DNA of 64,000 nt from Arthrobacter sp. SPG23 (GTDB lineage Bacteria > Actinomycetota > Actinomycetes > Actinomycetales > Micrococcaceae). The position numbers and the translations under genes are program-made. Within the stretch, counting starts at the first letter, position 1. Every line of letters starts with the position of its first letter. Positions 28,070 to 37,187 of the stretch are shown here, piece after piece. The notes beneath the pieces were generated by a model. That model was not told the DNA's origin, did not search any database, and worked only from the letters and a program-made list of their open reading frames with translations. The stretch is from positions 248,001 to 312,000 of the forward strand of contig NZ_JYCN01000022.1 of assembly GCF_000876655.1 (NCBI RefSeq). Reading direction: 5' to 3'.

Positions 28070-29911
28070 CTAGGGTGTGACCGACAGGGGCTGGCCGTTG
28101 ACCACCAGCCGCCAGTCATTCCGGCTGAACAGGGCCGCATCAAGGGTTCCGTTGTCCACCACGTGGTCAATGATCCGCTGCCGGATCTCCTGCTGGCTGT
28201 TGGACAGCACCGGAGCGGTTTTGACCGCCGGGAAGTTGCCGCCGCCGCTCTGGCGGTAGTTGTTGATGGCCATCGCAAATTCCTGGTCCGCGGGCAGCGC
28301 CTCTCCCCCGTAGCTGAGTCCGACGATGCGCTCGCCCACAGGACGGGCCAGGTCGATGTCATAGGTCAGCGGCGCGTCAAGGCCGTAGACGACGTCGTAG
28401 TTGTAGTCCGGGGTGCCGTTCGGAGCCATCGCAGTGACGGCGTTGGTCACGTCGGCCGCGCGGGCGGTAGCAGAACCGACCGGCTTGAAGTACTGCGCCG
28501 ACCATTCGAGGTAGGCCTTCACTTGCGCGCCCGTGACCTTGATGGACAGCAGCGTGTTGTCGAAAATGTACAGCCCCGCGACATCCCGGATGGTCAGCGG
28601 CCCGGCTTTGACATCAACGGCCCGGGAGAACGCCGCGGCAATGGACAGCACCGGCAGCCCCGCGGCAGGACCTTTGGCCAGTTCGGCCTTGATGGTGCTC
28701 GCCTGGACATAATTGATGGCGTCGATAGCCGCCGAATCCTCCCAGCAGGCGGTGGCAGTGCTGAGCGGGGCCGTGGAAGTCCCTATTACCTCGTTCACGT
28801 AGGACACCGTGGCGTCGTGCCCGGCCTGGACGGCGCGGACGACGGCGGGATCCGGCTTAGCGGTCTTGGCGTCCAGCAGGTGGGAAGACGCCGAAGTGAC
28901 GCTCCACTGCCCCTTCTCCTTGGTGAGGTGCAGGTCCATGACCGCGACCCGCATGCCCCACTTCAATGGCTCGGTCAGCAGGACCTGCTTCCCGGTGGCG
29001 GTGTTCTCGACAAAACGTTCCGGGATCTCCACGTGGGCGTGGCCCACCAGGATGGCGTCGATCCCCGGAACTTCCGCGGCCAGCAAGGAGGAGGCGTTTT
29101 CCGGGTACGGGAGCGCATCCCCGTAGGAGGACCCCGGCGTCGCGCCCGAATGGCTGGAGACGATTACGACGTCGGCTCCGGCGGCCTTCATTTGCGGGAT
29201 GACAGTCCTGGCTTCCTCGACGATTCCGTTGAAGTCCAATTTTCCCTGGACGTTGTCGCGGTCCCACAGGGCGCAACCGGGAGTCACGAAGCCGACCAGG
29301 CCCACTGTCAGCCAGCCGTTGTCCGTCTTCACACGCTTGAGGACATACGGCGTGAAGGCCCGCTCACCCGTCACGGCGTTGTGGACGTTGGCGCCGAGAA
29401 GCGGGAAGTCCAGCTGCTTTTCCCAGGTGCGAAGGAGCGGTATGCCGTAGTTGAATTCGTGGTTGCCTAGCCCCACCGCGTCGTAGCCCACGGCGTTCAT
29501 GGCCAGGGCCATGGGATGTTTGACCGACTCGGAGATGGGGCGGATCTTGGCGAAGTAGTAAGCCAGCGGCGTGCCCTGGATGGTGTCGCCGGCGTCGATG
29601 GTGATGGTACTGTCGGCGCCCCGTTCCTCCCGCATGGCCTTGATCAGGGTGGACGCCTGGGCGATGCCGATCTTGTTGCCGGCCGCGTCCGCGTAGGCGG
29701 TGTCCTTGAAGTAGTCCCAGTTGAAGACGTTGTTGTGCAGGTCGGTAGTGCCGAGCACCGTGAGGGTGAACTCTTTCCTGCCTCCGGACTGCAGCGCCGG
29801 GCCGGCCTGCGCGGCGGAGGCTCCGGCCAGCGTGGCGGCGGCGGCGGTCCCCCCGACGAGGGCGGCGGTGAGCATGGCGCGGCGGGAGGGCGAAGAGATC
29901 GGATCGGTCAT
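28070..29911 (-). CDS. Tat-exported 2',3'-cyclic-nucleotide phosphodiesterase / 5'-nucleotidase (CpdB-like)
   Basis: 613 residues. The twin-arginine signal SRRAMLTAALVGG precedes a hydrophobic stretch and AQAGPA cleavage region, so the enzyme is exported folded with its metals. The metallophosphatase domain has TTDLHNN, DAGDTIQGTPLAYY, GNHEFNYG and, near residue 255, SSHSGATPG. The C-terminal nucleotidase domain ends with AMAINNYRQSGGGNFPAV, the CpdB/5'-nucleotidase substrate clamp. Function: phosphate and nucleoside scavenging outside the membrane. CpdB-like is favoured over plain UshA-like by the NWDYFKDTAY segment. Single gene, convergent to ybaK. Confidence 0.88.
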   Translation of the reverse strand: MTDPISSPSRRAMLTAALVGGTAAAATLAGASAAQAGPALQSGGRKEFTLTVLGTTDLHNNVFNWDYFKDTAYADAAGNKIGIAQASTLIKAMREERGADSTITIDAGDTIQGTPLAYYFAKIRPISESVKHPMALAMNAVGYDAVGLGNHEFNYGIPLLRTWEKQLDFPLLGANVHNAVTGERAFTPYVLKRVKTDNGWLTVGLVGFVTPGCALWDRDNVQGKLDFNGIVEEARTVIPQMKAAGADVVIVSSHSGATPGSSYGDALPYPENASSLLAAEVPGIDAILVGHAHVEIPERFVENTATGKQVLLTEPLKWGMRVAVMDLHLTKEKGQWSVTSASSHLLDAKTAKPDPAVVRAVQAGHDATVSYVNEVIGTSTAPLSTATACWEDSAAIDAINYVQASTIKAELAKGPAAGLPVLSIAAAFSRAVDVKAGPLTIRDVAGLYIFDNTLLSIKVTGAQVKAYLEWSAQYFKPVGSATARAADVTNAVTAMAPNGTPDYNYDVVYGLDAPLTYDIDLARPVGERIVGLSYGGEALPADQEFAMAINNYRQSGGGNFPAVKTAPVLSNSQQEIRQRIIDHVVDNGTLDAALFSRNDWRLVVNGQPLSVTP

Positions 29912-30042
29912 CGTATGAGCTCCTTGACGTTGGGGCCGGTAGGCACAAAGCCAAAGTCTAGGGCTGCAGGAAGAGCATGAAAAGGAGAGTCCACAATCTT
30001 TTCCGGAACGTCACCTGTTATTTGGTGCGGGTCCGGAATGCA

Positions 30043-30076
30043 GGAAACCCCGCCCACCGGAGTGGACGGGGTTTCC
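30043..30076 (-). terminator. Terminator after rplL
   Basis: Stem ggaaaccccg(c)ccac with gtgg(a)cggggtttcc, loop cgga, lies 42 nt after the rplL stop. A strong GC stem with A/T closing pairs fits an intrinsic terminator, though the following T-tract is short. Confidence 0.8.
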
Positions 30077-30118
30077 CGGAGCCAAAAGGAAAGCTGAAGC
30101 CTTCCGAAGCTCGAAACG

Positions 30119-30493
30119 TTACTTGAGGGTAACGGTGGCGCCGGCAGCCTCGAGCTGCTCCTTTGCCTTTTCGGCAGCTTCCTTGGTTGCACCTTCGAGG
30201 ACAGCCTTCGGAGCGCTGTCAACCAGGTCCTTGGCTTCCTTGAGGCCCAGGGAAGTGATGGCGCGAACTTCCTTGATCACTGCGATCTTCTTGTCGCCAG
30301 CAGCTTCGAGGACGACGTCGAAGTCGGTCTTCTCTTCAGCTTCTTCAGCAGCACCGGCAGCGGGGCCGGCAACAGCAACAGCAGCTGCAGTAACTTCGAA
30401 GGTCTCTTCGAAGAGCTTGACGAACTCGGAGAGCTCGATGATGGTCAGTTCCTTGAAAGCTTCAATGAGCTCTTCGTTGGTGAGCTTCGCCAT
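30119..30493 (-). CDS. rplL: 50S ribosomal protein L7/L12
   Basis: L7/L12 (124 residues, normal) forms the flexible stalk that recruits EF-Tu and EF-G. The N-terminal dimerisation helices ([20 protein letters not shown]), an Ala-rich hinge and the C-terminal domain ([35 protein letters not shown]) are all visible. It follows rplJ after 78 nt and is followed by a terminator. Confidence 0.99.
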
Positions 30494-30571
30494 GGTGTGG
30501 CGTCCTTCCTATAGGTGGTGCTTGGCGGCCTGGGCCGTTGCCTTCACACCGGAGTCTGGTCTGAAAGAGAG

Positions 30572-31162
30572 TTAGTTCTCTTCGGTGGCTGCGGCTTCGG
30601 CCGGAGCTTCGGTCTCTGCTGCTTCTGCGGCCGGGGCTTCTTCAGCGGCGGGCGCTTCGGCAGCTGCCGGTGCACCGTTCTCTTCTTCAAGCTTGAGGCG
30701 CAGGGCGTCGATGATGCGTGCAGCAGCGGCAGCAGGAGCCTTGAGGATGCCTGCAACCTTGGCGAGCTGCAGCTCGCGGGACTCGAGTGCTGCCAGGGCA
30801 GCAACTTCGCTGGCGTTCAGTGCCTTGCCCTCGAAGTAACCGGTCTTGATAACCAGCTGCTTGTTGGTCTTGGCAAAATCCGTCAGGCTCTTGGCAGCTG
30901 CAACTGCGTCACCCTTGATGAACGCGATTGCAGTGGGGCCGGCGAGCTGGCCGTCGAATGCTTCGACACCAGCTTCCTTGGCTGCAATTGCGGTCAGGGT
31001 GTTCTTGACGACCGCGAACTTGGTGTCCTGGCCGAGAGAAACACGCAGCTGCTTGAGCTGTGCAACGGTGAGCCCACGGTATTCGGTCAGGACAGCGGCG
31101 TTCGATTCCTTGAAATCGTTAGTGATCTCAGCTACTGCTGAAACCTTGGTAGGCGTTGCCAT
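30572..31162 (-). CDS. rplJ: 50S ribosomal protein L10
   Basis: L10 anchors the L7/L12 stalk and autoregulates its operon through the leader RNA. Core signatures: NAAVLTEYRGLTVAQLKQLR, KNTLTAIAAKEAG and GPTAIAFIKGD. It has 196 residues against ~170 usually. The excess is a C-terminal Ala/Glu/Pro-rich tail after the L12-binding helix. A GGAAGGAGG ribosome binding site precedes the ATG. Confidence 0.98.
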   Translation of the reverse strand: MATPTKVSAVAEITNDFKESNAAVLTEYRGLTVAQLKQLRVSLGQDTKFAVVKNTLTAIAAKEAGVEAFDGQLAGPTAIAFIKGDAVAAAKSLTDFAKTNKQLVIKTGYFEGKALNASEVAALAALESRELQLAKVAGILKAPAAAAARIIDALRLKLEEENGAPAAAEAPAAEEAPAAEAAETEAPAEAAATEEN

Positions 31163-31221
31163 AACCCTCCTTCCGGGGATAGTGCCGGTGTTCCGGGTCC
31201 CCGCTCAGGTGAGCTAAAACT

Positions 31222-31415
31222 AAAAACGCCCCGGGCAGATGCACGGGGCTTGGCTCGACACAGTCCATGACTGCGGAGCTTTACTTCGTTCACCTGCGCT
31301 GGCCGCCCTATGTTCAGGGTCCTTCGTCCGGAAATCCACTGGCTCTCCCGCACACAACTGCAGAATTGAGCAATGCCCAGGAGAGTGGATTTCCAACAAC
31401 CGACGGTCTTTGGTA
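31222..31415 (-). ncRNA. L10 leader (rplJL autoregulatory leader RNA) with attenuator
   Basis: The minus-strand leader begins CTACCAAAGACCGTCGG (31415-31399), has an 11-bp helix ggaaatccact/agtggatttcc, then the block CGCAGGTGAACGAAG(TAAAGCTCCGC), which matches the conserved L10-leader motif as I remember it. It ends in a terminator stem (gccccg/cggggc, 31228-31249) followed by GTTTTTAGTTTT. In this family L10(L12)4 binding to the leader represses rplJ-rplL. A covariance-model search would confirm the assignment. Confidence 0.8.
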
Positions 31416-31420
31416 GTTCA

Positions 31421-31450
31421 AGCTTACGGGCAAGGCCGCCCGGACTCCAA
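31421..31450 (-). promoter_or_regulatory. Promoter of the rplJ-rplL operon
   Basis: On the minus strand TTGGAG (31450-31445) and TAAGCT (31426-31421) are separated by 18 bp. Transcription would start about 7 nt further on, just at the first conserved leader bases, which supports the assignment. Confidence 0.65.
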
Positions 31451-31461
31451 ATCGGGGCCGT

Positions 31462-32586
31462 TCAGCTGCTGCTCGGGCCCAGGTCAGGCAGGTCCTTCTG
31501 CCAGATCCCCGTGACTCCCGCGGTGGTGAACCCCAGCTGCTGGTTGACCTTGAGCAGGTATCTGTTTTCCGGAGCATTCCAGGTGTAGATGACCCTGGCG
31601 TCGGGGAACTGCTCGGTCAGGCGGACCATGTTGGCCACCTTGATCAGGAGGCCCAGCTTGTTGCCCCGGTGTTCCTGCATCACCACCGTGTCATCCTGGA
31701 ACACTACGTCCTGCCGCTGGGACAGGACGCTGATGGTGGTCAGCCCTACCAGCATGCCGGTGGCGATATGTTCGACGGCGGTGACCACCGTCCGCCGTCC
31801 CTGCGCGATGGTGGCCTCTTCCGCCTTCCTGATCATGGCGCCGTCGAACACCATCTGCTCTTCGGTCCTTGCGGTCGGTTCGGTGTCCTCACCGGCCTGG
31901 TTTTCCAGGGCTGCTACGGCGTCGAGCCAGATGTCGGGGCACCTGTCCGTCCAGTGATGCAGGCGGTAGCGGCCCGCATTGGCCTGCTCCGCCTCGTCCG
32001 ACAGCTCAGCGACCAGCTTGGTGTCCAAAGGGAGCAGGCAGGAGCTGAACTGCTCGATGTGCTGCAGGGTGTAGCCCGTCTTCCGGGCGAACTCCACTTC
32101 CCGGCTTCCCATCGGAACAAAACCCAGCCCGGAGCCGGGGACCAGCTGGTCGTCCATGGAGCTGCTCAATGAAACGCCGGGATGGTTGGTATCGATCAGG
32201 ATCAGGGTCCGGCCTTCGGCGCGTGCAAACTGCTCTGCCGCTTCCAGTAGCTGGCGCCCCACCCCTTGGCGCTGGAATTCCGGCAGGATGTCCAGCGTGA
32301 ACTCCGCGAGGTCGAGGTTATCGGCCAACGGCAGGGCGATATCCACCGTCCCCACAATTTCGCCGTCCACCCTTGCCACCAGGATGACCTGGCGTTCGTA
32401 GGGATCGGCAAGTTCGAGGAGTTTTTCCAGCGGCGTGTACGCGAGATCGTCACTCCCCCACGTTTGCATCCGCACCTTCCGGCCGACTTCGACGGCGGCC
32501 AGGAAATCGGCGCTGTCGGGACCGTCGAGGGAATCGGGAATCCAGAGCTGTTCGATCCGTACGTCTTTAACCATAGAGGGCGTCAT
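31462..32586 (-). CDS. Two-domain GNAT acetyltransferase
   Basis: 374 residues with two GNAT modules. The N-terminal module contains the acetyl-CoA loop FQRQGVGRQLLEAAEQFAR (about residue 110). The C-terminal module has HRGNKLGLLIKVANM and TWNAPENRYLLKVNQQLGF. The substrate is unknown. Start: ATG at 32586 overlaps the stop of an upstream paralogue remnant as ATGA, implying a once-coupled gene pair; ATG at 32574 is an alternative. The gene is inserted between rplA and the rplJ-rplL unit, which are usually adjacent. Confidence 0.85.
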   Translation of the reverse strand: MTPSMVKDVRIEQLWIPDSLDGPDSADFLAAVEVGRKVRMQTWGSDDLAYTPLEKLLELADPYERQVILVARVDGEIVGTVDIALPLADNLDLAEFTLDILPEFQRQGVGRQLLEAAEQFARAEGRTLILIDTNHPGVSLSSSMDDQLVPGSGLGFVPMGSREVEFARKTGYTLQHIEQFSSCLLPLDTKLVAELSDEAEQANAGRYRLHHWTDRCPDIWLDAVAALENQAGEDTEPTARTEEQMVFDGAMIRKAEEATIAQGRRTVVTAVEHIATGMLVGLTTISVLSQRQDVVFQDDTVVMQEHRGNKLGLLIKVANMVRLTEQFPDARVIYTWNAPENRYLLKVNQQLGFTTAGVTGIWQKDLPDLGPSSS

Positions 32587-32741
32587 TCCAGTCGTTTCTG
32601 CCACTCACCTTCAAAGCCGGCGGGCTTGAATCCAAGCGAAATATTAATCGCCAGCATATGCCGGATTTCGCTGGCGTTCCATGTAATGGCCGACTCCGGT
32701 CATAGCTTCTTCTGCCATTCGCCGTCGTACCCCGCGGGCCG
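32583..32741 (-). pseudogene. Two tandem C-terminal remnants of GNAT paralogues
   Basis: In one frame the minus strand reads RPAGYDGEWQKKL-stop (32741-32700), immediately followed by about 38 codons that contain ITWNASEIRHMLAIN and SLGFKPAGFEGEWQKRLE-stop (to 32583). Both match the end of the intact downstream GNAT protein (TWNAPENRYLLKVNQQLGF...GIWQKDL). No upstream GNAT sequence remains. This looks like a former tandem array in which two copies were deleted down to their 3' ends. Confidence 0.8.
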
Positions 32742-32764
32742 GCAAATAAAAGGGCGCGGACGCA

Positions 32765-32798
32765 GAAAGACCGCCCCGCAACTGCGGGACGGTCTTTC
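32765..32798 (-). terminator. Terminator after rplA
   Basis: A long stem (gaaagaccgccccgca with tgcgggacggtctttc, one mismatch, very small loop) begins 19 nt after the rplA stop. It reads through A/T-closed ends on both strands, consistent with an intrinsic terminator. Confidence 0.85.
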
Positions 32799-32816
32799 AT
32801 GCCGAACTAATGAGGA

Positions 32817-33524
32817 TTAGACCTCGGTCAGGACCTTGGTGACGTTGGGGTCAACAGAGATGCCCGGGCCGAAGGTGGTAGCCACGGTGGCCTTCTGGAT
32901 GTAGCGGCCCTTGGAAGCGGACGGCTTCAGGCGAAGGACCTCTTCCAGTGCTGCTGCGTAGTTCTCGGCCAGCTTGATGGCGTCGAACGAAACCTTGCCG
33001 ATGATGAAGTGCAGGTTGGAGTGCTTGTCGACGCGGAAGTCGATCTTGCCACCCTTGATGTCGTTGACAGCCTTGGTGACGTCGGGGGTCACGGTGCCGG
33101 TCTTCGGGTTCGGCATCAGGTTACGCGGGCCCAGGACCTTACCGAGGCGGCCAACCTTGCCCATGAGGTCAGGGGTGGCGACGGCGGCATCGAAGTCGGT
33201 CCAGCCGGCTGCGATCTTTTCGATCAGGTCGTCGGAACCAACGAAGTCGGCGCCGGCAGCGATTGCTGCTTCTGCCTTGTCGCCCGTTGCGAAGACGAGG
33301 ACGCGGGCAACCTTACCGGTGCCGTGCGGCAGGTTAACGGTGCCGCGGACCATCTGGTCAGCCTTACGCGGGTCTACACCCAGGCGGAAAGCGACCTCAA
33401 CGGTGGCGTCGAACTTGGACGGGTTGGTGTCCTTGGCCAGCGTCACTGCCTCGAACGGCGCGTAGAACTTCTCCGCGTCGATCTTGGCGGCGGCTGCCTC
33501 ATATGCTTTGCTGCGCTTTGCCAT
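32817..33524 (-). CDS. rplA: 50S ribosomal protein L1
   Basis: L1 (235 residues) forms the mobile stalk at the E site and often represses its own operon. Start [11 protein letters not shown] at 33524 with AAGGAG upstream; the frame is open further but without family similarity. Signatures: [40 protein letters not shown] and [18 protein letters not shown] 221-bp gap follows rplK, in which I see no gene. Confidence 0.98.
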
Positions 33525-33745
33525 GCTGCTTATTCTCCTTGTGCAGTTGTGGTCTGCGGACCGCGCTGGGCCCTGCCACAGTTGGATGATCGGGCTGGAT
33601 CTCCAACATTTCAATGATTCAGTGGTGCCGGTCTCCCGGCGAGAGGGGAATTAACCCTCGGCAGTATCTTCTTGTCGAAAGTCTGCGGGACTCACTTCCG
33701 GCGAGTGCTTCGTACCTCAGCCCTCACCGTCCGTTCATTCCTCGA

Positions 33746-34174
33746 CTATTCGACAGTGATACCCATGGAGCGGGCGGTGCCGGCGATGATCTTCGCTGCG
33801 CCTTCGAGGCTGGTGGCGTTGAGGTCTTCCATCTTGGTGGAGGCGATCTCGTTGACCTGGGCCTGGGTCAGCTTGGCAACCTTGACGGTGTGCGGGGTAG
33901 CTGAACCCTTGGCGACGCCTGCAGCCTTCTTGATGAGCTCTGCAGCCGGCGGGGTCTTGGTGATGAACGTGAACGAGCGGTCTTCGTAGACCGTGATTTC
34001 AACAGGAATAACGTTGCCGCGCTGGGCTTCCGTCGCAGCGTTGTACGCCTTGCAGAATTCCATGATGTTGACACCGTGCTGGCCAAGCGCAGGACCGATC
34101 GGCGGGGCCGGGTTGGCGGCACCTGCCTGGATCTGCAGCTTGATGAGGCCGGTGACCTTCTTCTTGGGAGCCAA
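33746..34174 (-). CDS. rplK: 50S ribosomal protein L11
   Basis: L11 (142 residues) binds the GTPase-associated region of 23S rRNA and is the target of thiostrepton-type antibiotics. [38 protein letters not shown] and the C-terminal [12 protein letters not shown] are diagnostic. The start codon is TTG (34174), forced by the invariant APKKK N-terminus and the GAGAAGGA site upstream. A TTG start for rplK may lower its initiation. Confidence 0.97.
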
Positions 34175-34305
34175 TGTAGGGTCCTTCTCTCAATTACGTC
34201 CTGGGACACAGGAGCGTGCCTCAGGTTGGTGGCCGCCATGGCGAGGCGGCCGGCCGCTTCGTGGCTGCTAAGCGGGCAGCCCCGGAGCGAATTCTGTGGG
34301 TATTG

Positions 34306-35139
34306 CTAGATCTTGGTGACCTGGTTGAATGCCAGGGTGACCGGGGTCTCGCGTTCGAAGATGGAGACCAGCACCACGAGGGTCTGGGAATCGACCTTGA
34401 TCTCGGAGATCGTGGCGGGGAGGGTCTCGAACGGACCTTCCTTGACGATGACGGACTCGCCAACTTCGAAGTCGACGTCCACGGGGGCCGCAGCGTGCTT
34501 GACGGGCTTGCCCTTCTCGGCCTGCTCTTCTTCGAAGACGGGGGCGAGCATGGAGAAGACCTCGTCCAGGCGCAGCGGTACCGGGTTGTGGGCGTTGCCC
34601 ACGAAGCCAGTGACACCCGGAGTGTGCCGAACGGCACCCCAGGAGGCATCCGTCAGGTCCATGCGGACCAGCACGTAGCCGGGGATGCGGACGCGGTTGA
34701 TGACCTTGCGCTGGGCGTTCTTGATCTCCACGACTTCTTCCATGGGAACCTGGATTTCGAAGATGTAATCTTCCATGTCCAGGGTCTGGATGCGGGTTTC
34801 AAGGTTGGCCTTCACACGGTTTTCGTAACCTGCGTAGGAGTGGATGACGTACCAGTCGCCTTCCTGGCGGCGCAGCTTGGCCTTGAACTCCTCGGCCGGG
34901 TCAACCTCGGCCTTGGCGGCCGCAGCGGCCAGGGCGTCAGCCTCGTCGTCGTCGGAGCCAGCGCCGGCTTCGGCGTCAGCTTCAGCGTCGTCAGCGTCGG
35001 TTTCAGAGGAATCGTCGATGGAATCGGGCGCAGCAGACTCAACCTCGGACTCTTCCCCGGCTACCGCCGCGGCGTCTGTTGCGCTGTCCGTGGACCCATC
35101 CAGCTCAGTCTCAGTTACCTCGAGCTCCTGCTCAGACAC
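34306..35139 (-). CDS. nusG: Transcription elongation factor NusG with acidic N-terminal extension
   Basis: NusG binds RNA polymerase through its NGN domain and Rho or S10 through its KOW domain. The NGN domain starts near residue 95 ([19 protein letters not shown]) and the KOW domain carries [18 protein letters not shown]. About 90 N-terminal residues form a highly acidic Asp/Glu/Ser/Ala extension, as in other actinobacteria. I choose the GTG at 35139 because AGGAG lies 5 nt upstream; an in-frame ATG at 35169 lacks this. It is downstream of secE. Confidence 0.95.
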
Positions 35140-35255
35140 TTGGTCTCCTGCTTCCTCATTGCCTAACATGCCTATTTAAATGGCTCAATTCCGCACACCC
35201 CGTGAATGCTTCCGGATTATCGGGAGCATTCCACGCAGTCTGCGGACGGATCGCC

Positions 35256-35540
35256 TTAGCGGTCCGTGGGGCCTGTGCCGCCGAAGACCCAGCTCACTCC
35301 GGTCCCGAAAGCCAAGTCCAGGACGGTAACAATGAGCATCATGATGATCACGAACACCAGCACCACGAGCGTGTAGTTGATCAGTTCCTTGCGGGTGGGT
35401 GCTACGACCTTCTTCAGTTCGCCGATGACCTGGCGGATGAAGAGTGCGATGCGAGCGAAGAAGCCGGACTTGGCGGCGTTCTTGGCGGGGCGGCCCTTGG
35501 AGCTGCTTGCAGCCGTTTCGGTCACCTGGTCCTCACTCAT
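35256..35540 (-). CDS. secE: Preprotein translocase subunit SecE
   Basis: SecE (94 residues) clamps the SecY channel. After a charged N-terminal region comes the amphipathic helix FFARIALFIRQVIGELKKVV, the PTRKEL turn and one transmembrane helix (YTLVVLVFVIIMMLIVTVLD). Gene order tRNA-Trp, secE, nusG, rplK, rplA is the standard actinobacterial arrangement. Confidence 0.97.
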   Translation of the reverse strand: MSEDQVTETAASSSKGRPAKNAAKSGFFARIALFIRQVIGELKKVVAPTRKELINYTLVVLVFVIIMMLIVTVLDLAFGTGVSWVFGGTGPTDR

Positions 35541-35622
35541 CCTCGCAAATGTCGGATTACCCGGCTCTGAACTGAACCATGGTTGCTGCGCTGGCTCCGG
35601 CTAACCGCCGGAACCGCTTGCG

Positions 35623-35695
35623 CAGGGCAGACAGGACTCGAACCTGCAACCTGCGGTTTTGGAGACCGCTGCGCTACCAATTGCGCCACTACCCT
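35623..35695 (-). tRNA. tRNA-Trp (anticodon CCA)
   Basis: 73 nt on the minus strand: acceptor AGGGTAG pairing with CTGCCCT, D-loop AATTGGTAG, anticodon arm cggtct-CCA-aaaccg and T-loop GGTTCGAGTCC. The CCA tail is not encoded. Position just upstream of secE is the usual one for tRNA-Trp. Confidence 0.98.
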
Positions 35696-35957
35696 ATGGA
35701 TCGAAAACCAATCAGACCACACTTCCCGCGGACTTCACGGGGCGCAGGCCATCATCGTGTTTTCAACACCGGAGAACTAGTCTACGCAACAACTGCGCTT
35801 ACGTCGAACCAGCCTCATTTCGGACCTTCTTCGGACTGCCAAGGCCTGCCGACCGGGACACGGTCACATTCCTGGCCGTCACGCTGAACGATCCGCTGAA
35901 CAGCATAGAGTAGATCTCGTCGAATCCCACATCCAGCCATCGAGCTGCAAGCGAAGA

Positions 35958-37187
35958 ATGGACCCCGCCATGCCTGCCGCCCGCGTTTCCCAACGCATTT
36001 CCGCTATCGCCGAATCCGCCACCCTGGCCGTTGATGCCAAGGCCAAGGCACTCAAGGCAGCCGGACGGCCGGTTATCGGCTTCGGCGCCGGGGAACCCGA
36101 CTTCCCGACCCCCGGCTACATCGTTCAGGCTGCCATTGAGGCCGCCAGCCAGCCGAAGTACCACCGCTACTCCCCTGCCGGCGGGCTGCCGGAGCTCAAG
36201 CAGGCCATTGCGGACAAGACGCTGCGGGATTCCGGCTACAAAGCCGAGGCGTCACAGGTCCTGGTTACCAACGGCGGCAAGCAGGCCGTCTACAACACGT
36301 TCGCCACGCTGGTCGATCCGGGCGACGAAATCATTGTTCCCACCCCGTTCTGGACCACCTACCCGGAAGCCATCCGGCTGGCCGGCGGCGTTCCGGTTGA
36401 GGTCTTCGCCGGCCCGGAACAGGACTACCTCGTCACTGTGCAGCAGCTGGAAGCGGCCCTGACCGAGCGCACCAAGATCCTGCTGTTCGTGTCGCCGTCC
36501 AACCCCACCGGTTCCGTGTACTCGCCGGAGCAGGTCCGCGAGATCGGTCTCTGGGCGGCTTCCAAGGGGCTGTGGGTTGTGACCGACGAAATTTACGAAC
36601 ACCTGACCTACGACGGCGTCCCCTTCACCTCCATTGCCACGGCGGTTCCCGAACTCGGCGACAAGGTGGTTATCCTCAACGGCGTCGCCAAGACCTACGC
36701 CATGACCGGCTGGCGGGTGGGCTGGATGATCGGTCCGGCGGACGTCATTAAGGCCGCCACCAACCTGCAGTCCCACGCCACGTCCAACGTCTCCAACATC
36801 ATGCAGATTGCTGCCCTCGCCGCCGTCTCCGGCCCGCTCACTGCGGTGGACGAAATGAAGGTGGCCTTCGACCGCCGCCGGAAGGCAATTGTCGCGGGCC
36901 TGAACGCCATCGACGGTGTGGAATGCCCGACGCCGAAGGGCGCCTTTTACGTCTACGCGGACGTCCGCGGCCTGCTGGGCAAGGAATTCGAGACGGCGAA
37001 CGGTACCGTCCGCCCGCAGACATCCGCCGAACTCGCTGCGCTCATCCTGGATGAGGTAGAGGTTGCAGTCGTTCCGGGCGAGGCTTTCGGCCCCTCGGGC
37101 TACCTGCGCCTCTCCTACGCCCTTGGCGACGACGATCTCGCCACCGGCGTGGCCCGGCTCCAGGGTTTCCTCGGCAAAGCCAAGTAG
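35958..37187 (+). CDS. aspC: Class I pyridoxal-phosphate aminotransferase (aspartate aminotransferase type)
   Basis: 409 residues, fold-type I. Signatures: [17 protein letters not shown] (residues ~38-54), [14 protein letters not shown] with the conserved Asn, [12 protein letters not shown], and the PLP lysine in [16 protein letters not shown] (about residue 243). The C-terminal arginine that binds the carboxylate is in GYLRLSYAL. This subfamily (I-gamma) is annotated as aspartate transaminase; related prephenate or other amino-acid use cannot be excluded. A TAGAGT -10-like box lies 50 nt upstream. ATG at 35958 or 35970 are both possible. Confidence 0.9.

Follow-up and report, generated by a model that had tools for sequence, protein, structure and literature searches.

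Between rplA and rplJ of Arthrobacter sp. SPG23, two short pieces that resemble the C-terminal ends of GNAT acetyltransferases stand immediately before one intact GNAT gene. This raises the question of what the two pieces are, and why only the 3' ends of genes have been left at this position. We examined the locus within a window of 64,000 nucleotides, the whole stretch of DNA analyzed here, which is taken from a 4.7-Mb genome in 38 contigs, and compared it with related genomes. The evidence points to a promoter embedded in the second piece. To the account as a whole, in which an array of three genes (A, B, and C) decayed and the tail of gene B was kept for the putative promoter of gene C, we assign a probability of roughly 0.8.

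Organization of the rplA-rplJ interval

On the minus strand, rplA is followed by a strong hairpin, the two pieces with GNAT C termini, gene C, an interval of approximately 300 nt, and rplJ. The features are as follows.

32817 to 33524, minus strand: rplA (ribosomal protein L1), the upstream neighbor; an open reading frame that, used as a query, matched 118 of 121 genus genomes.
32766 to 32797, minus strand: strong terminator-like hairpin 3' of rplA (fold of 32755 to 32803, -34.3 kcal/mol, z = -6.4).
32696 to 32742, minus strand: fragment 1, what is left of the 3' end of gene A, including the stop codon at 32702 to 32700; assigned by its match to the end of A in genome L034.
32583 to 32698, minus strand: fragment 2, the 116 nt that are left from the 3' end of gene B, including the stop codon at 32585 to 32583; assigned by its match to the B-C junction of L034.
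32653 to 32681, minus strand: proposed promoter of gene C, consisting of TGGAAC (32681 to 32676), 17 nt, and TATGCT (32658 to 32653); proposed from conservation in coding and non-coding settings.
32660 to 32653, minus strand: CATATGCT, which spans the -10 box of the proposed promoter.
31462 to 32586 (with stop), minus strand: gene C, an intact tandem GNAT acetyltransferase of 374 amino acids, identified by open reading frame, Pfam, and fold match.
30572 to 31162, minus strand: rplJ (ribosomal protein L10), the downstream neighbor; an open reading frame with homologs found.

The terminator scan did not flag the hairpin at 32766 to 32797, which is followed only by TTTC.

The start of gene C is taken as the ATG at 32586 to 32584, which overlaps the stop codon of fragment 2 as ATGA, as the first-pass annotation of this DNA had described; a further ATG in the same frame, at 32574, could also serve as the start. 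Pfam identifies the product as a GNAT protein (PF00583, 6.1e-14) through residues 58 to 135 only, the N-terminal domain, and no NCBIfam model reached its cutoff. The AlphaFold model (mean pLDDT, 79.8) matches the solved tandem GNATs 2wpw/2wpx in a fold search (best E value, 1.7e-26), and the sequence itself matches PDB entry 2wpw with an E value of 3e-21. The earlier description of an intact gene with two domains thus holds, with Pfam detecting the first GNAT-like domain and the predicted model, together with its fold match, indicating both. The tandem GNAT protein ORF14 of the clavulanic acid cluster (2wpw, 2wpx) likewise carries two GNAT-like domains per chain, with 22 to 23% identity to C in the fold alignment; unlike ORF14, C is encoded between rplA and rplJ. 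From the nearness of the gene to rplJ and rplL, a ribosomal protein is thinkable as its substrate.

The ribosomal cluster had been regarded as normally uninterrupted, which is wrong. Among the 42 genomes of the class, other than the one studied here, that have rplA and rplJ on one contig, 16 have more than 1 kb between the two genes. The distance is approximately 49 and 54 kb in two of the class genomes (G237 and G283). From other genera of the family, 20 stretches were picked for a C-like gene; 16 of them have one or more GNAT genes between rplA and rplJ, and the remaining 4 do not include rplJ. Two stretches of another genus have a third GNAT-like gene downstream of C (4822 to 5691 in L158 and 4729 to 5598 in L159).

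The fragments as remnants of genes A and B

The first-pass annotation had reported two successive C-terminal GNAT fragments, in one frame and each with its own stop, and had interpreted them as a former array of at least three paralogs, two of them deleted down to their 3' ends. Both fragments are present: fragment 1 ends in CRPAGYDGEWQKKL before its stop codon, and fragment 2, in the same frame, reads PESAITWNASEIRHMLAINISLGFKPAGFEGEWQKRLE up to its own. Pfam found no GNAT match in the 52-residue read-through of the two. At the nucleotide level, window positions 32698 to 32538 match the 3' end of B and the start of C in L034 with 98% identity over 161 nt (E value, 3e-78), and positions 32742 to 32696 match the same genome with 89% identity over 47 nt, a span made up of the final 43 nt of A, stop codon included, and 4 further nucleotides (E value, 1e-13). 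The A-derived and B-derived matches overlap by 3 nt (32698 to 32696) at the joint. A chance similarity is ruled out by these matches. The fragments also come from different genes of the array, with fragment 1 matching the end of A best and fragment 2 the end of B, which rules out two pieces of a single gene.

Comparison of the rplA-rplJ interval in related genomes, which the annotation had proposed, covered 117 rplA-side intervals of the genus, consisting of 116 fetched stretches downstream of rplA and the window; three of the 121 genus genomes had no rplA match, and in G019 the contig ends at rplA. A gene was counted as intact when a single open frame could be aligned for 300 residues or more; by this rule, sequencing frameshifts would count as breaks. 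Besides C, there are two orthologous positions, A adjoining rplA and B adjoining C. Both A and B are intact in 5 of the 117 intervals, which thus hold A, B, and C complete; A is intact and B broken in 1, only B is intact in 56, only A in 33, and neither in 22. The outcome that would speak against an array, fragments with no full-length counterparts in relatives, did not occur. Extra DNA is found in the interval in L106, where the first GNAT gene begins approximately 5.3 kb after rplA, and in L088, where A and C are approximately 3.9 kb apart.

A quick protein tree built from 88 selected copies, some of them on long branches, recovers B and C as one clade each and places A with upstream copies from two other genera. 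A quick tree of C (116 rows, excluding L106, which stops short of the end of C and of rplJ) places the window and L052 as sisters (SH-aLRT, 98) within a clade of seven (SH-aLRT, 100), which comprises the window, L052, L033, and four A-B-C genomes, that is, four of the five complete intervals. L033 represents an intermediate state, in which B is cut to nearly the tail seen in the window and A is shortened; in the window and L052, A is trimmed further than in L033. Strain Y81 (L173) has complete B and C genes and an A split into two pieces. From the clade tree, the state of L033, the junction with 98% identity, and the 3-nt joint, it is as good as shown that the locus is a former A-B-C array in which A (approximately 47 nt left) and B (116 nt left) were cut down to their 3' ends.

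A conserved two-box element before gene C

The tail of B in the window carries TGGAAC-N17-TATGCT (32681 to 32653). CATATGCT is found before C in 116 of the 117 genus intervals, the exception being L136, and its setting is an intact B in 61 rows, a broken B in 12, A in 8, and DNA outside any GNAT frame in 35. The -10 element of mycobacterial SigA is given as TANNNT (PMC10653884); TATGCT, present in 116 of 117 intervals, fits this form. A box lies at exactly 17 nt from it in 110 of 116 rows (TGGAAY in 99, TTYAAY in 11). These boxes resemble TTGACA weakly, TGGAAC being a weak -35 element, and the promoter scan did not call the site. In L062, L070, L071, L119, and L145, the -10 box adjoins the end of A, with GGCAGC at 17 nt and TGGCAG, from the tail of A, at 18 nt. 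All 22 genomes that lack both an intact A and an intact B have TGGAAY or TTTAAY, 17 nt, and TATGCT before C. In the 33 intervals in which A alone is intact, the motif lies in the gap before C in 24 and inside A in 8, and 1 is without it.

When the 35 non-coding rows are aligned on CATATGCT, most columns of the upstream flank hold less than 0.5 bits and the -35 block holds 1 to 2 bits; G at +8 and C at +10, both outside the anchor, are invariant, and some columns further downstream also reach 1.2 to 1.3 bits. The rows are related (22 of 116 fall in one clade), and this conservation is not one over independent cases. In a set of 80 named loci, which overlaps the 117, CATATGCT occurs within 300 nt before C in 76 and is absent in 4. 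L219 (Arthrobacter sp. ISL-28), which has C only, shows no CATATGCT in the 400 nt before C, even with one mismatch allowed. Neither L230 and L245 (A. cupressi) nor L249 (A. celericrescens) has CATATGCT; in these genomes an intact A abuts C, and Tyr replaces the His of the motif.

The pattern TGGAAYN16-18TATGCT occurs twice in the genome of SPG23, once at this locus. Among the 20 stretches sampled outside the genus but within the family, the two-box motif precedes C in one (L165), and the element seems, from this sampling, to be mostly limited to the genus.

Synonymous constraint within gene B

Where the motif lies within B, synonymous letters of the host gene are constrained, and the homologous segments of A and C show no such constraint. 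The His codon of the motif is CAT in 67 of 67 B copies, compared with 157 of 570 for the other His codons of B. The same codon in 33 A copies without the motif is CAC in 28, CAT in 2, TAC in 2, and CGC in 1. Excess codon homozygosity in B is highest over the motif (0.384; gene mean, 0.113), and the homologous segments score 0.053 in A and 0.006 in C. The first of the codon tables for B was made with 60 rows (L045 left out) and the second with 61 (L045 included). Intact copies of A that abut C (n = 9) have CAT in 8 and TAC in 1, and those apart from C (n = 29) have CAT in 2; the Fisher test for this difference gives 8e-6, uncorrected for kinship, and the abutting copies are near kin. The constraint in B extends to the end of the gene, where the translation of C starts, so that a promoter would not be its sole cause.

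Alternatives to a promoter

The B tails could be neutral leftovers of deletions that happened to end there, too recent to have been erased, with C transcribed from elsewhere. The tails of the window are indeed young, as its 98% identity to L034 over 161 nt indicates, and L219 has no motif yet keeps C. However, older non-coding rows retain the boxes while the rest has drifted, and neutrality would not explain why the same letters are under synonymous constraint in intact B; we regard this explanation as unlikely.

Another view is that the tail was kept for the translation of C, as a ribosome-binding region with an ATGA overlap for coupled initiation. This overlap is found in 59 of 61 intact B genes, the codons CAG AAA at the end of B are invariant, with CGG and CTG nearly so, and EWQKRLG is among the most constrained windows. 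Such a function would account for the last 20 to 30 nt but not for boxes 67 to 95 nt upstream that persist in rows lacking a B frame as well. It is improbable as the explanation of the tail, and a role in translation may exist alongside the proposed promoter.

The conserved stretch might also be a small upstream open reading frame acting on C, which in the window would be MERQRNPAYAGD (32682 to 32644, minus strand). A start codon (ATG or GTG) lies ahead of the motif, with a frame of 10 or more open codons, in 24 of the 35 non-coding rows and 48 of the 73 B rows. The remaining 11 non-coding rows and 25 B rows, as well as all 8 A rows, have CATATGCT but no such frame or a broken one, and no variation is seen at the synonymous third positions of its GCA and GCT codons. 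We consider a small open reading frame very improbable, and its absence or breakage in so many rows with CATATGCT led us to drop it as the main cause. Least probable of all is an operator for a regulator, with CATATG as the center of a palindrome that is perfect where CCAG precedes it (CCAGCATATGCTGG in many rows), which was dropped as the main cause since there is free variation in the left half (CGG, CAG, CAA, CGT, GAA, GGG) but not in the right half or in the more distant TGGAA box, although a regulator site may overlap the promoter.

A structured RNA in the leader of C was also rejected, as positions 32560 to 32660 fold no better than shuffled sequences (z = -0.4).

Repeated gene loss and the proposed promoter of gene C

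Our comparison demonstrates relatives with all three genes, deletions, two boxes conserved in both coding and non-coding settings, and synonymous constraint. We infer that the boxes form a promoter, that it serves C, and that it is the cause of the survival of the tails. The -10 box TATGCT and the -35-like box TGGAAC, 17 nt apart, would be written in the B codons for TWNA.EN.HML, and the start of transcription would lie approximately 60 nt before C, downstream of the hairpin at which the rplA transcript probably ends. Served from the tail of its neighbor, C would need no transcription of A or B, so that A and B could be lost repeatedly, provided that the deletion stopped short of the promoter. 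The tail of B would have been retained for the sake of this promoter.

In the quick tree of C, rooted at the midpoint, there are 17 maximal clades without intact B and 19 without both A and B, and all 22 genomes of these 19 clades retain the motif. In six of the 19 (L037, L053, L072, L089, L095, and L124), most of a gene is still present with broken frames, and the other 13 have large deletions. The odds lean toward a more general reading of these patterns, namely, that a putative promoter placed in the codons of a paralog serves the next gene, outlives its host through about a dozen separate large losses within the genus, has a counterpart in copies of A that abut C, and allows a three-gene array to be reduced to a single gene.

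Relation to known systems

Intragenic transcription starts in mycobacteria (PMC10653884) and the proposed promoter of C have in common a TANNNT made from synonymous codons inside an actinobacterial open reading frame. In the mycobacterial study, new starts arose from recoding, and coding sequence is depleted of TANNNT; unlike that case, the Arthrobacter site is conserved across the genus and lies directly before the next gene. The decaying pseudogenes of Buchnera (PMC3164680) resemble this locus, in that spacers derived from decayed genes retain functional elements. Those described in that paper are terminators, Shine-Dalgarno sequences, and Sigma-32 sites in reduced genomes, whereas here it is one proposed promoter in the tail of a lost paralog, with repeated loss, in free-living soil bacteria.

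In the open-licence literature, we found no report linking Arthrobacter, rplJ, and GNAT and none that combines gene loss with an intragenic promoter. Both gene decay and promoters within genes are already known, and the repeated case described here seems new but ordinary in kind. Its value lies in a natural series among close relatives (intact, half-lost, and lost), in which a regulatory element inside a coding sequence can be traced as its host gene dies; in other respects, the locus shows the ordinary decay of genes in a soil bacterium. This suggests that fossil gene ends beside a living gene are worth checking for promoters and that the choice among synonymous codons is constrained there.

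The gap between gene C and rplJ

A promoter serving rplJ was considered for the tail of B and set aside, as the gap between C and rplJ holds a separate conserved TAAGCT block, so that the promoter proposed in the B tail would probably not be the only one of rplJ. This gap (31163 to 31461, minus strand) is strongly conserved; in the 26 of 116 rows that a strict anchor admitted, ATTTGG and, approximately 20 nt further on, TAAGCT show no or almost no variation. The block is perhaps rplJ's own promoter. Rfam gave no match within 31163 to 31461, and over 29900 to 36000, at E values up to 0.5, it listed a tRNA alone. At 31220 to 31249, a G+C hairpin is followed by a run of T, an arrangement that resembles an attenuator.
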